Positions 29,465 through 35,864 of a stretch of DNA of 64,000 nt are shown here, in pieces. Under the pieces are notes generated by a model. It had not been told where the DNA came from. It searched no databases and was given only the letters and a program-made list of their open reading frames with translations. The first letter of the stretch is position 1, and every line of letters begins with the position of its first letter. The translations under genes were made by a program, and so were the position numbers. The stretch comes from Candidatus Polarisedimenticolaceae bacterium (GTDB lineage: Bacteria > Acidobacteriota > Polarisedimenticolia > Polarisedimenticolales > DASRJG01): NCBI GenBank assembly GCA_036275915.1, contig DASUCV010000014.1, positions 1 through 64,000 of the forward strand. The letters are read 5' to 3'.

Positions 29465-30727
29465 TCATCCTCCCGGCCGCGAGACGGTGCGGCGTACTTG
29501 GAAGACCACTAGGTTACCGGAATCGTCGAAACCCCACTCGACGATCCGTCCCGGACCGAGCGTACGGGCAGCGGCCGCCAGTGTTTCCAACTGGTCGGTC
29601 GTGAGGCTGGGGCGGCCCCGCAGCTCATCGGGGAGCGGCTCTTCGATCGTCCCGGGGTGGTTCGGATCGAGGACGATCCAGGTCGCAGCAGGCACGATCT
29701 CGGAGGAGAGGATTTCTCCGGTCGATGCTCGGAGCCGGAAGAGGTCGCCGGCGACTTCGCCTTGTGCGATCGCCTCGCCGAGCCCCCACGCGGCGTTGAC
29801 GGTGACGGTATCTCCGTCCGTCTCGAATACGCCGGATGGGCTCGTCGGGACGACCGCCTGGACGAGGACGGCTTGGCAGGCGGCCGAGGGGAATCCTCCG
29901 AGGTAGGCGATGGCGCGCTCGTTCCACAGGGACGCCCAGGTCGCGCGGACCGATGAGACGAGCGAGGCGGGAGAGACACCGAGACGGGAATCGAAGAGGC
30001 CGGCCAGCGTTCCCTGCGGGCCGTCCTCGATCGTCGCCGACGAGCGGACGGCGAGGCGTGAGGCCGAGAGCTCACGGGAGGCGGCTTCGATCGAGTTGCG
30101 AACGTCGCCGGGAACGGGGCTCGCGAGGATCGCGGCGCGGGCGTGCCGGGAGTCGCTCGCGCGGCGAAGCTTTTCGTCGACCTCGCCTTCGATGTGCCGT
30201 CGGTAGGCAGCCGCGGTGACGACGAAGCCGGATGGGACGCGGCACTGGTTCATGACGGCGGAGAGGCCTGCGGCCTTTCCGCCGACGTCTTGGCGCGCGA
30301 GCCCGGGAGCGAGGGGGACGACGAATCTCGGGTCGATCGGCCCCGGGGGCGATGAGGGAAGAGGGGACAGCTTCCGAAACTCCGGGGTTCGAGTTTCGGA
30401 AGCTGTCCCCTCTGCGCCGTCGCCGATCACGACCACGCCGCGCGTGCCGTCGACGACCACGAAGGCTCCCTCGACGAGGAGGTCGAGCCGCGGCAACCCA
30501 ACCGACGGCTTGCCCAGCTCGCGCGAGAGAAGGCCGACGTGCGAGAGGGGAGGCGCCATACCGGTGATCGTGCCGGCGGCGGCGACGATCCGCGGCACGT
30601 CGTCGGGGACCGCGCGCTCGGCGACGAGGATCGCGCCTTCCGCTTCCCGAGGCGTCAGGTCGGGCCGGTTCCGGACGATGCGGCCGCGCGCGACGCCGGG
30701 CGCGATCGCCCTTCCTGCGAGCTTCAT
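29465..30727 (-). CDS. PEP-synthase-like protein with swapped domain order
   Basis: A 420-residue protein that has the two mobile parts of PEP synthases in reversed order and lacks the PEP-binding barrel. The N-terminal part (1-105) is the swivelling His domain; its motif is APPLSHVGLLSRELGKPSVG, with the catalytic His conserved. The C-terminal part (about 135-420) is the ATP-binding domain: GGKAAGLSAVM, VPSGFVVT, and LAVRSSATIEDGPQGTLAGLF. A type A palindrome of 54 bases lies in frame in the linker (about residues 105-122). It may phosphorylate a small molecule, as rifampicin phosphotransferase does, or be a partner subunit. The start has TAGTCT 6 bases upstream. Confidence 0.75.
   Translation of the reverse strand: MKLAGRAIAPGVARGRIVRNRPDLTPREAEGAILVAERAVPDDVPRIVAAAGTITGMAPPLSHVGLLSRELGKPSVGLPRLDLLVEGAFVVVDGTRGVVVIGDGAEGTASETRTPEFRKLSPLPSSPPGPIDPRFVVPLAPGLARQDVGGKAAGLSAVMNQCRVPSGFVVTAAAYRRHIEGEVDEKLRRASDSRHARAAILASPVPGDVRNSIEAASRELSASRLAVRSSATIEDGPQGTLAGLFDSRLGVSPASLVSSVRATWASLWNERAIAYLGGFPSAACQAVLVQAVVPTSPSGVFETDGDTVTVNAAWGLGEAIAQGEVAGDLFRLRASTGEILSSEIVPAATWIVLDPNHPGTIEEPLPDELRGRPSLTTDQLETLAAAARTLGPGRIVEWGFDDSGNLVVFQVRRTVSRPGG
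30360..30413. repeat. GGGGACAG palindrome, type A, in frame inside a gene
   Basis: Perfect 23-base arms (30360-30382, 30391-30413) flank an 8-base spacer, 54 bases in total, exactly 18 codons. The element lies wholly within the PEP-synthase-like gene and does not break its frame; the host protein reads [18 protein letters not shown] there. It falls between two domains. This is the only full palindrome of the family inside a gene here. Confidence 0.93.
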
Positions 30728-32984: not shown

Positions 32985-33341
32985 ATGAACGCAGATCCCA
33001 AGTCGTTCAAGCCAAGGAACATCGCCGTCTTCGGCCGCGAGCTGGCCCTGGCGTGGGCCGACGGCCACGAGTCGTATCTCCCCTTCGACGACCTGCGCCG
33101 CGCCTGTCCCTGCGCCATGTGCCGCGGAACGCACGAGCCGGCGGCGGCCCCCGACCCGCTCCGGATCGTGAAGGCTCCCGTCGCGGGGCAGGTCGCGATC
33201 GCCAAGCTCGTCCCGGTCGGATCGTACGCCGTCCAGATCGTCTGGAGCGACGGCCACGACACGGGGATCTACGCGTTCGAGTCGCTCCGGGAGGCCTGTC
33301 CCTGCCCCGATTGCCGCCGCCGCAACGGAGGAGCGTCGTGA
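32985..33341 (+). CDS. DUF971 (GBBH-like N-terminal) protein
   Basis: A 118-residue protein with the DUF971 pattern: LALAWADGHESYLPFDDLR, the Cys cluster CPCAMC, a central VPVGSYAVQIVWSDGHDTGIY, and a second Cys cluster CPCPDC near the end. The Cys groups suggest zinc or iron binding; in some bacteria members take part in iron-sulfur protein maturation. It overlaps the first GAPDH gene (GTGA) and is in one operon with both GAPDH genes. Its exact role here is unknown. Confidence 0.88.
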   Translation: MNADPKSFKPRNIAVFGRELALAWADGHESYLPFDDLRRACPCAMCRGTHEPAAAPDPLRIVKAPVAGQVAIAKLVPVGSYAVQIVWSDGHDTGIYAFESLREACPCPDCRRRNGGAS

Positions 33342-34369
33342 CCACTCGCATCGGTCTCATGGGCTTCGGCCGCATCGGCCGCAACGTCTTCAAGATCCTG
33401 CACGACCGCGACGATCTGCAGGTCGCGGCGATCGTCGACATCGCGGAGCCGCAGGCGCTCGAGTACCTGCTCAAGTACGACACGGTGCACGGCCGCTTCG
33501 AAGCGCCGGTGTGGGTCAAGGGGGATGCGCTCTACGCGCGCGGCCGCGCGATCCGCCTCCTCCACGAGAAGGCGCCGGGCGACGTCGACTGGGCCGCGCT
33601 CGGCGTCGACATCGTCGTCGAGGCGACCGGCAAGTATCGAACGCGCGCGCTCCTCCAGAAGCACCTCGACCGCGGGGCGAAGCGCGTCGTCCTCACGGTG
33701 CCGCCGCGCGATGACCTCGACGCGCTCGTCGTGATGGGCGTGAACGACGACGTCCTCACCCCCGACGTGCGCCTCGTGAGCAACGCCTCGTGCACCGCGA
33801 ACGCGCTCGCCCCGATCTGCAAGATCCTGGACGACGCGTTCGGGATCGAGCGCGGCTTCATGACGACGGTGCACGCCTACACGAACGACCAGCGCCTGGC
33901 CGACGTCCCCCACGACGAGATCCGACGCTCGCGCGCCGCGGCGGAGAACATCATCCCGACGACGACGTTCTCGCCGCAGGTCGTCGAGTCGATCCTCCCG
34001 CAGCTCAAGGGCAAGCTCGACGGCATGGCGCTCAACGTGCCGGTCCCCGACGGCTCGACCGTCGACCTCGTGACCTGGATGAAGACTTCGGTGACGGCGG
34101 AGACGGTCAACGAGGTCGTCCGCTCCGCCTCCGCGACGACGTTCAAGGGGATCGTCGAGTACACCGACCAGCCGGTGGTCTCGAGCGACGTCGTCGGCAA
34201 CGACCACTCGGCGGTGTTCGACGGGCTCTCCACCTTCGTGCTCGGCGACACGATGCTGAAGACGATCACCTGGTACGACAACGGGTGGGGCTACGCGCGG
34301 CGCGTCACCGAGCTGATCGCGCGCCTCGCGGCGCTCGAAGCGGTCCCGGCGGAGAGGGTCGGACGATGA
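33338..34369 (+). CDS. Glyceraldehyde-3-phosphate dehydrogenase paralogue 1 (divergent)
   Basis: A 343-residue GAPDH-family enzyme. NAD-binding GFGRIGR is at 9-15, catalytic Cys152 in SNASCTANALAP, and His179 in TTVHAYTNDQ. It departs from the consensus where phosphate and cofactor bind: SCTTNC has become SCTANA, the usual STGAA after NIIPT reads TTFSP, and WYDNEWGYS reads WYDNGWGYA. The cofactor or substrate may therefore differ (for example another aldehyde phosphate or NADP). The GTG at 33338 overlaps DUF971; the stop overlaps the second GAPDH (ATGA). Confidence 0.85.
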   Translation: MTTRIGLMGFGRIGRNVFKILHDRDDLQVAAIVDIAEPQALEYLLKYDTVHGRFEAPVWVKGDALYARGRAIRLLHEKAPGDVDWAALGVDIVVEATGKYRTRALLQKHLDRGAKRVVLTVPPRDDLDALVVMGVNDDVLTPDVRLVSNASCTANALAPICKILDDAFGIERGFMTTVHAYTNDQRLADVPHDEIRRSRAAAENIIPTTTFSPQVVESILPQLKGKLDGMALNVPVPDGSTVDLVTWMKTSVTAETVNEVVRSASATTFKGIVEYTDQPVVSSDVVGNDHSAVFDGLSTFVLGDTMLKTITWYDNGWGYARRVTELIARLAALEAVPAERVGR

Positions 34370-35373
34370 CGAAGCCCAAGGTCGCGATCAACGGGTTCGG
34401 GCGGATCGGGCGCGCCGTCTTCCGCATCCTCGCCGGCCGGGACGACGTCGACGTCGTCGCCATCAACGACATCTCGCCGAAGGAGACCCTCGCGTACCTC
34501 ACGCGCTTCGACACCGTGTTCGGCCGGTTCCCCGGCGACGTCACGATCGAGGGGAGCACGATGCACGCGGGCACGCAGTCCGTACGCATGCTCGAGGAGA
34601 AGGACCCGGCGAAGCTCCCGTGGAAGGCGCTCGGCATCGACGTCGTCATCGAGGCGACCGGAAAGTTCCGCAAGAAGGACGAGTGCATGAAGCACGTCGA
34701 GGCGGGCGCGGCGCGCGTCATCCTCACCGTGCCGGCCAAGGACGAGGTCGACGCGATGGTCGTCGTCGGCGTGAACGACGGGGTCTTGAGGAAGGAGCAC
34801 CGCATCGTCTCGGCCGCGAGCTGCACGACGAACTGCCTGGCGCCTGTCGCGAAGGTGCTCCACGAGGCGTTCGGCCTCAAGAGGGGACTCATCACGACCG
34901 TCCACGCCTACACGAACGACCAGCGCCTCGCCGACGTCCCGCACAAAGATCTCCGGCGCTCGCGCGCGGCGAACGAGAACATCATCCCGACGACGACCGG
35001 CGCCGCGAGGGCGGTGGGGAAGGTGCTGCCCGAGCTGAAGGGCAAGCTCGACGGGATCGCGATGCGCGTGCCGGTGCCCGACGGCTCGACCGTCGATCTC
35101 GTCGCCGAGCTCGAGCGGGACGCCACGCCGCAGCAGATCAACGACGCCGTTCGCGCGGCCGCTTCGAAGCCTCCGCTCGCCGGGATCCTCGCCTACTGCG
35201 ATCAGCCGATCGTCTCCTCGGACATCATCCAGGACTCCCACTCGGCGACGTTCGACTCTCTCTGCACGCGCTCCCTCGGCGGCCGCTACGTGAAGACGAT
35301 CGCCTGGTACGACAACGAGTGGGGCTATTCGTGCCGGGTCGTCGACCTGATCGGCCGCCTCGCGGCGCTATGA
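34366..35373 (+). CDS. gap: Glyceraldehyde-3-phosphate dehydrogenase (classical)
   Basis: The glycolytic NAD-dependent enzyme. The 335-residue protein has INGFGRIGR at 8-16, Asp35 in AINDIS (which favours NAD), catalytic Cys153 in ASCTTNCLAP, His180 in TTVHAYTND, NIIPTTTGAARAV for phosphate binding, and WYDNEWGYS. All key residues are consensus. It is translated in overlap with a divergent paralogue, so both are made together. The structured RNA at 35385 starts 12 bases after its stop. Confidence 0.95.
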   Translation: MTKPKVAINGFGRIGRAVFRILAGRDDVDVVAINDISPKETLAYLTRFDTVFGRFPGDVTIEGSTMHAGTQSVRMLEEKDPAKLPWKALGIDVVIEATGKFRKKDECMKHVEAGAARVILTVPAKDEVDAMVVVGVNDGVLRKEHRIVSAASCTTNCLAPVAKVLHEAFGLKRGLITTVHAYTNDQRLADVPHKDLRRSRAANENIIPTTTGAARAVGKVLPELKGKLDGIAMRVPVPDGSTVDLVAELERDATPQQINDAVRAAASKPPLAGILAYCDQPIVSSDIIQDSHSATFDSLCTRSLGGRYVKTIAWYDNEWGYSCRVVDLIGRLAAL

Positions 35374-35384
35374 CACGGCGTGGG

Positions 35385-35602
35385 GGTTGCCGCGCCCGGG
35401 TTTCCCCGGTAACTTGAACGCGTCATCCGGAGCGGCCCGCCTGCTTTTGGCGGGTCCGGCAACCTGGGAGGGCATCCCAAGGTGCCAACCCCGCGGTCGT
35501 TGCGCGGGGGATGCGGGCCGAGGCCGAAGGGCCGAGGCCAAACAAGTGCCCGGCGCGGAGGACCCGCGCTCTCCGGGTGTCTTCCTCGTGGGAGGAGGCA
35601 CC
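35385..35602 (+). ncRNA. Large structured RNA upstream of a miniprotein
   Basis: About 218 bases fold into nested, exact helices. Domain 1 is closed by GGTTGCCG (35385-35392) with CGGCAACC (35457-35464). It holds hairpins CCGGG/CCCGG (35396-35409) and CCCGCC/GGCGGG (35436-35454). A linking hairpin TGGGA/TCCCA is at 35465-35479. Domain 2 is closed by GGTGCC (35481-35486) with GGCACC (35597-35602). It holds CCCCGCG/CGCGGGG (35489-35509), a GGCCGAGGCC pair with tandem G-A mismatches (35516-35539), CCCGG/CCGGG with an inner CGCGG/CCGCG (35549-35577), and TCCTC/GAGGA (35583-35596). ACTTG (35412-35416) can form a pseudoknot with CAAGT (35543-35547). The last helix covers the ribosome binding site of the following gene. 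The layout recalls HEARO/IscB-associated RNAs, but no IscB is present. Confidence 0.72.
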
Positions 35603-35604
35603 AC

Positions 35605-35802
35605 ATGCACCCCGATCATCACCTCTGGCGGAACGGCAGGCTCTTCTGGGTCGCCTTCACCGTCCACCTTCCGGGTTGGCGGAAGGAGCGGGTCCGACGT
35701 TCGCTCGGGACCGACGACGTCGCCGAGGCACGCCGCCGCCGCGACGTTCTCTTCGCGCACCTCGCGGGACAACCCGATCTGACGCTCTCGCTGCGCTACT
35801 AG
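35605..35802 (+). CDS. 65-residue miniprotein resembling an integrase arm-binding domain
   Basis: A very small basic protein. It has GRLFWVAFTVH (strand 1), KERVRRSLGTDD (strand 2 and turn) and VAEARRRRDVLFAHLAG (helix), the pattern of the N-terminal arm-type DNA-binding domain of tyrosine recombinases. The catalytic domain is absent. It starts 2 bases after the structured RNA; its ribosome binding site GGAGGAGG (35591-35598) is the 3' strand of the last two helices of that RNA. A type A palindrome follows its stop. It may bind DNA or its own leader RNA. It could also be a relic of an integrase. Confidence 0.6.
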   Translation: MHPDHHLWRNGRLFWVAFTVHLPGWRKERVRRSLGTDDVAEARRRRDVLFAHLAGQPDLTLSLRY

Positions 35803-35808
35803 GATTTG

Positions 35809-35862
35809 AGAGGGGACAGCTTCCGAAACTCGTACTTCAGAGTTTCGGAAGCTGTCCCCTCT
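35809..35862. repeat. GGGGACAG palindrome, type A (miniprotein-ttcA)
   Basis: Perfect 23-base arms (35809-35831 and 35840-35862) flank an 8-base spacer. It fills the gap between the convergent miniprotein and TtcA-like genes, ending 2 bases before the latter's stop. A two-way terminator role is plausible. Confidence 0.92.
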
Positions 35863-35864
35863 GA

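Follow-up and report, generated by a model that had tools for sequence, protein, structure and literature searches.

A probable SAM-I/IV riboswitch and a conserved promoter motif accompany a family of small, predicted DNA-binding proteins

Why does a strongly folded RNA run into the start of a 65-residue open reading frame (ORF) between gap and ttcA, and what might the RNA and the small protein do together? The question is raised by one locus of the window, that is, the whole stretch of 64,000 nucleotides analysed here. A first-pass annotation had described a structured RNA beginning at 35385 and left three options: control of the miniprotein by an RNA switch, a miniprotein that binds its own leader RNA, or a relative of the HEARO/OMEGA-type RNAs. 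It had also named homologous RNAs, homologous miniproteins, and covarying base pairs in other genomes as the things to look for, and all of these were found. A conserved DNA motif (35369-35377) lies outside the interval that it covered. The features of the locus are as follows.

35369-35377, + strand: DNA motif TATGACACG (consensus TATGACACR), sharing bases with the stop codon of gap; the proposed miniprotein site
35387-35392, + strand: -35-like hexamer TTGCCG, proposed because relatives conserve a TTGC 9-10 nt behind the motif
35410-35415, + strand: -10-like hexamer TAACTT after a 17-nt spacer, proposed from positional conservation in relatives
35420-35555, + strand: putative SAM-I/IV-class riboswitch aptamer, from the match to covariance model R1 (104 bits, the window copy being one of the 14 sequences used to build R1), relatives above the RF01725 cut-off, covariation, and the SAM pocket
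35424-35427 with 35510-35513, + strand: aptamer helix P1
35432-35441 with 35449-35457, + strand: aptamer helix P2
35458-35468 with 35476-35486, + strand: aptamer helix P3
35489-35495 with 35503-35509, + strand: aptamer helix P4
35516-35539, + strand: aptamer helix P5
35470-35474, + strand: pseudoknot strand GGGCA in the P3 loop, partner of 35548-35552
35548-35552, + strand: 3' pseudoknot strand UGCCC, partner of 35470-35474
35553-35569, + strand: hairpin GCGCGG/CCGCGC in the stretch from pseudoknot to platform, from the minimum-free-energy structure
35576-35602, + strand: ribosome binding site (RBS) hairpin of the expression platform, conserved and covarying, with the RBS (35591-35598) inside
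35605-35802, + strand: ORF of the 65-residue miniprotein, predicted arm-type/AP2-like fold (strands at residues 7-10, 13-22, and 26-33, helix at 39-54)

Proposed promoter and 5' boundary of the RNA

The folding described for the interval between gap and the ORF holds for its greater part: 35418-35607 has a folding energy of -108.1 kcal/mol (z = -3.3), which none of 200 dinucleotide shuffles matched, and the fold of 35385-35602 reaches z = -2.8 against shuffles. The first part, from 35385 to about 35418, had been taken as a 5' domain of the RNA; it aligns instead with a promoter in relatives, where a TTGC-type -35 element, a spacer of 16-18 nt, and a -10-like hexamer follow one another and the aptamer comes about 9 nt later. 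This assignment is drawn from conserved position, since no promoter is called when the 35385-35418 region is scanned with the plain sigma-70 consensus, and the transcript is expected to start near 35420. A pseudoknot suggested earlier between 35412-35416 and 35543-35547 would use the -10 element and is not supported; the conserved pseudoknot pairs 35470-35474 with 35548-35552.

Assignment of the RNA to a riboswitch class

At the gathering level, Rfam gives no match in the whole window, and at a relaxed threshold the window's best match is sub-threshold (SAM, RF00162, 23.8 bits). Among ten loci tested, RF01725 was the best Rfam match for 8 RNAs; its cut-off of 41.1 bits was passed by two relatives (L011 with 42.2 bits and L045 with 41.3 bits), while six more scored 32.9-39.5. 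The first option, an RNA switch, is supported, and the switch can be given a class name, SAM-I/IV. Covariance model R1, built from 14 sequences, detects the RNA in most miniprotein loci examined, and a second model, R2, also detects it upstream of held-out Opitutae loci. In an alignment of 52 RNAs, 94.6% of the cells are paired, 23 of the 30 pairs show compensatory change, and the covariation score is 0.588 versus 0.176 after shuffling (0 of 500). That alignment was fitted to the structure; 14 sequences aligned independently with MAFFT gave 93% paired and, for covariation, again 0 of 500.

Across the 52 RNAs, P2 is unsplit by an internal loop (96% paired, with compensatory change in each of its 8 pairs) and P4 is present (77% paired). 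The nucleotides that contact SAM are 6-8, 11-12, 44-47, 57-59, and 87 in SAM-I numbering (PMC6890682), and these positions are identical in 51-52 of the 52 RNAs, save for one that covaries with its pairing partner. The pseudoknot is 98.6% paired in 14 close relatives, with compensatory A-U/G-C changes, and a complement of at least 5 nt occurs in 44 of 46 non-Opitutae loci (43% by shuffling) and one of at least 6 nt in 28 of 46 (12% by shuffling). The undivided P2, the P4 helix, and the P3-loop pseudoknot argue for SAM-I/IV rather than SAM-I or SAM-IV, and on this comparative evidence the RNA is almost certainly a divergent member of that known class.

With the SAM-I/IV riboswitch (RF01725; Weinberg et al. 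2010, PMC2864571; features per PMC6890682) the RNA shares P1, an uninterrupted P2, P3 with the SAM core, P4, P5, the pseudoknot that joins the P3 loop to the strand following P5, and a place upstream of metK in related genomes. It differs in that the window copy lies below the Rfam cut-off and has CGGA as J1/2, that the pseudoknot is absent in an Opitutae subgroup, and that the usual target gene in the present set encodes an uncharacterised DNA-binding-like miniprotein. The duplex of GGCCGAGGCC with GGCCGAGGCC and its tandem G.A pairs, pointed out at first sight, does exist as P5 of the window, but the sequence of P5 differs in relatives. No signal for the P3-loop pseudoknot was detected in 18 Opitutae-type loci, and the ligand affinity of these RNAs is uncertain. 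The Opitutae riboswitches (L044, L046, L077, L090, L097, and others) form a subgroup with CATCACGAG as J1/2 and no detectable P3-loop pseudoknot.

Expression platform, predicted ligand, and genes behind the RNA

Two types of expression platform stand behind the aptamer. In Acidobacteria, Planctomycetota, and Deltaproteobacteria, a hairpin (GGUGUCUUC/GAAGACACC) with the Shine-Dalgarno sequence precedes the start codon. The RBS of the window had been described as folded away, and it does lie inside the hairpin at 35576-35602, which is conserved and covarying in 18 relatives (U-A/C-G and C-G/U-A exchanges occur, and on average 8.6 of the 9 pairs are retained). In many Verrucomicrobia, the ORF is separated from the pseudoknot strand by an intrinsic terminator, and terminator hairpins with U-tracts were identified at 18 loci (Verrucomicrobia, Lentisphaerae, viral). 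Two platform types behind one aptamer, and before one gene family, are a riboswitch signature, and the RNA very probably controls the synthesis of the miniprotein. By analogy with known SAM riboswitches, SAM would turn the gene off. One contig filed as viral (L105, IMGVR_UViG_3300037781_000208) carries the whole module, with motif, terminator riboswitch, and miniprotein.

Among the 199 relatives searched with R1, the RNA was found directly upstream of metK (L114, L115, L116, and L118 in genomes G031, G023, G193, and G106) and of a metH-like/homocysteine-methyltransferase gene (L117, genome G054), the gene names at these loci being read from the translated sequence. SAM is, with high confidence, the predicted ligand. 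A protein search of the 199 related genomes gave no miniprotein match in the five genomes with the RNA on a metK or metH-like gene. In the window's genome, the miniprotein leader is the sole R1 match, a SAM-I riboswitch is absent, and metK lies at another place with no such RNA in front. At L125 and L244, the RNA directly precedes an AAA+ gene, with no miniprotein. At L126 and L119, the ORFs that follow the riboswitch are small (about 60-75 codons) and unrelated.

At most loci, the window included, the miniprotein gene stands alone, with no close co-directional gene behind it (in the window, ttcA follows on the opposite strand). Elsewhere metK comes next behind it, or genes for MoxR-like AAA+, VWA/DUF2201-like, and divergent MetK proteins. 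From these operon contexts, and from the RNA placed directly on the AAA+ gene in L125 and L244, we conclude that the miniprotein belongs to the SAM regulon. SAM-I/IV operons combining the MoxR-like AAA+, VWA/DUF2201-like, and divergent S-adenosylmethionine synthetase genes, with or without the miniprotein, were seen at L087, L096, L059, L084, L049, L030, L014/L047, L100, L125, and L244.

The miniprotein family and its predicted fold

Besides the window's own copy, the search of the 199 related genomes returned six clear miniprotein relatives, all of them with a similar RNA upstream. A protein-pattern scan of public genomes gave 196 miniprotein-encoding sites, of which 80 were kept, and the family spreads over at least five phyla (Acidobacteria, Planctomycetota, Verrucomicrobia, Lentisphaerae, and Deltaproteobacteria). 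W15, R29, R31, L34, T36, A42, and R46 are invariant over the 80 aligned members, and the pooled pN/pS of close pairs is 0.09, indicating strong purifying selection. Judged by this conservation, the 65-residue ORF is a real gene, as had been supposed. The same values bear on the idea that the ORF is a regulatory leader peptide of metK/MoxR operons with no protein function of its own, which would suit those loci where it lies directly before metK or a MoxR-like AAA+ gene, with overlapping ends in L014 and L076. However, most loci, including that of the window, have no close co-directional gene behind the ORF, and selection of this strength on residues invariant over 80 members makes a mere leader peptide very improbable.

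No NCBIfam family matches the miniprotein. In Pfam, 69 of the 80 members match DUF6538 weakly (E ≤ 0.01) and 2 of the 80 match Arm-DNA-bind_3; the window protein scores 21.8 bits against DUF6538, below the cut-off of 27, and has no other Pfam domain and, up to the stop at 35802, no recombinase catalytic domain (R...H-R...Y) in frame. Two members match an integrase family weakly in PHROGs, PADLOC gave no match, and neither the PDB sequence search (nothing relevant) nor a Foldseek search of the model against the PDB (nothing significant) added a relative. The AlphaFold2 model (pLDDT 79) is a three-stranded sheet with a helix. When compared by VIA-align with solved structures, its best DNA-binding fits, at modest Z, are the arm-type domains of the HPI and HAI7 integrases (3jtz, Z 4.4; 3ju0, Z 4.2; rmsd 2.1-2.3 Å over 50 residues, 22% identity), with AP2 domains (1gcc, 6sy0) close behind at Z 3.6-4.0. 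The likeness to an arm-binding domain noticed at first therefore stands as a similar predicted fold, and we do not file the miniprotein as a member of the arm-type domain families.

The miniprotein has in common with the arm-type domains of tyrosine recombinases (HPI, HAI7; DUF6538, Arm-DNA-bind_3) the three-stranded sheet with one helix and an SLGT...EAR..RD signature; unlike them, it is free-standing, with 50-110 residues and no core-binding or catalytic domain, starts with a conserved HHLWxNxxxWW, and scores below the Pfam cut-off. The predicted sheet-helix arrangement also resembles AP2/ERF domains, although the Z is low, no sequence relation is shown, and the miniprotein is bacterial. On the modelled fold, it is probably a DNA-binding protein. 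This fold, together with the one module copy on the viral-filed contig, could also recall a decayed tyrosine-recombinase mobile element or a HEARO/OMEGA-type guide RNA, the third of the initial options. Against such an origin, HEARO gives no match at E ≤ 10, the RNA has a SAM-clan core with an invariant pocket, the gene downstream is the miniprotein and then ttcA, no recombinase catalytic domain is in frame, and the metK context recurs, so that its probability is close to nil.

A conserved DNA motif in front of the proposed promoter

At 62 of 66 miniprotein loci, the sequence TATGACAC(R), that is, TATGACAC(A/G), stands a short way before the promoter with at least 7 of 8 matches, counted within a 52-nt interval per locus, versus 2 of 507 control windows further upstream. 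Seven of seven new miniprotein loci, fetched independently by the RNA model alone, carry the motif as well, some with 1-2 changes. It is missing from nine RNA-only loci (L244, L251, L119, L114-L118, and L125), with L126 as an exception, where the motif precedes a second riboswitch with no miniprotein directly downstream, in a genome that does have a miniprotein. L013 and L041, where the miniprotein is followed by metK, have no motif. With L126 counted, the association is 69 of 73 versus 1 of 10 (Fisher p = 2e-8, kinship uncorrected). L074 and L104 each have one motif copy in reverse orientation. The distances from motif to aptamer cluster at 54-57, 66-68, 76-79, and 88-89, in steps of about 11 bp (best-fitting periods 10.5-11.2 bp), a helical phasing that is partly confounded by lineage. 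At L057 (upstream of 283), the usual motif region has given way to a CRISPR-like array, with GTCGCCGCCTTCACGGGCGGCGCGGATTGAAAC as its repeat, that stops shortly before the riboswitch.

The second option, a miniprotein bound to its own leader RNA, has no support: what goes along with the miniprotein gene is a DNA motif and not an RNA element. Domains of the AP2/ERF type act as monomers on short asymmetric sites. The short asymmetric site and its helical phasing would fit a DNA-binding domain acting as a monomer in contact with RNA polymerase, for which the miniprotein is the natural candidate; that it binds TATGACACR itself is a reading towards which the sequence comparison leans slightly. Alternatively, TATGACACR could be the site of another regulator of the promoter, the miniprotein acting elsewhere (DNA sites, the nucleoid, or a MetK, MoxR, or VWA partner). 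The tie between protein and motif is indirect, L013 and L041 keep the miniprotein without the motif, and the metK promoters of an Opitutae clade carry a related TATGACRYA block by palindromes that could be an ArsR/SahR-type site. Yet, from phylum to phylum, the motif goes with the miniprotein gene, and RNA-only loci lack it, which would be unusual for an unrelated regulator, and an asymmetric site of about 9 bp suits a monomeric arm-type domain, and we regard this alternative as rather unlikely.

The motif searches brought out no regulon beyond the miniprotein's own gene. Genome-wide, TATGACACA is not enriched over the reversed control in 13 genomes, the window's genome has no other promoter-like ATGACACR-N8-11-TTG site, and a search for ATGACAC-N8-11-TTG in 8 genomes gave mainly coding matches on inspection. 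A site at the promoter of an Opitutae TonB receptor is not claimed, as it varies like a -10 element in 18 relatives. Upstream of unlinked metK genes, TATGACGCA occurs in G203, G204, and G090; the relatives of G204 include a miniprotein clade with TATGAC[AG][CT]A at a constant place of the metK promoter, but G210, in which no miniprotein was found, has it too (strict test, p = 0.13). The TATGAC-type sites at metK promoters are thus confounded and serve as a lead only.

The Opitutae metK promoters (L253, L256, L263-L277, L281, and L289-L290) share a conserved block, TATGAC[AG][CT]ATCTTCCTATCnGGATACTT...CTTGCC, about 107 nt before the conserved MetK start region, in which the TATGAC motif may be joined to an ArsR/SahR-type palindrome. 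In the Verrucomicrobia loci L255, L258, L260, and L261, an apparent ArsR-family (SahR-like) gene, recognised by eye from the sequence, is divergent from metK.

Proposed regulatory module

We consider it likely that the locus is a two-input module, in which a SAM-I/IV riboswitch is joined to a miniprotein whose probable binding site is the TATGACACR in front of its own promoter. When SAM is plentiful, ligand binding would stabilise P1, P3, and the P3-loop pseudoknot; the platform (the RBS hairpin here, a terminator in many Verrucomicrobia) would stay closed, and little miniprotein would be produced. When SAM is scarce, the miniprotein would be made, probably bind the asymmetric 9-bp site upstream of its own promoter, and regulate its own transcription. 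Of the possible roles, activation appears the most likely, because the site shifts in helical-turn steps, and we propose activation rather than repression tentatively, at slightly below even confidence. Methionine/SAM genes such as metK could be further targets.

As a more speculative extension, which we think possible and rather doubtful, the miniprotein would found a class of minimal activators, a single arm-type domain released from tyrosine recombinases and working from TATGACACR at helically phased positions, and the module would be a SAM-gated, self-activating relay that replaces direct control of metK by the riboswitch in several lineages. The relay is suggested by the five genomes of the window's phylum in which the RNA stands on a metK or metH-like gene and no miniprotein match is found. 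Riboswitches upstream of regulator genes are known, where a metabolite-sensing RNA gates a trans-acting factor; the present case differs from them in that a conserved DNA site marks the promoter of the factor, which is itself a minimal domain.

In the literature that could be searched, which excluded most subscription papers and the 2010 description's supplement, we found no link of DUF6538, MoxR, or the miniprotein to SAM riboswitches and no description of a module of riboswitch, miniprotein, and DNA site. As far as found, the miniprotein family and its linked DNA site are undescribed. What is new is a gene family that accompanies a known RNA class across at least five phyla, plus a sharply conserved DNA motif, and the RNA and the miniprotein together have the look of a regulatory module that is widespread and has gone unrecognised, with metK, MoxR-like AAA+, VWA/DUF2201-like proteins, and divergent MetK as candidate partners. 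If the model is true, the control of a pathway by its metabolite riboswitch would gain a third layer in the form of a tiny DNA-binding protein, and the case would show how a recombinase's DNA-reading part can turn into a free regulator.

Neighboring genes and repeats

Directly upstream of the module, at about 33330-35373, the window has a tandem of two glyceraldehyde-3-phosphate dehydrogenase genes that differ from each other and whose ends overlap. The matches to miRNA and Pyrobac-1 families in the relaxed Rfam search were discarded as chance or as due to the palindrome at 35806-35864. This near-perfect palindrome (AGAGGGGACAGCTTCCGAAA..., about 55 bp) occurs in the window also at 30360-30413; it lies outside the module, is a dispersed repeat of the genome with 80 matches (both orientations), and looks like a REP/MITE-type element.
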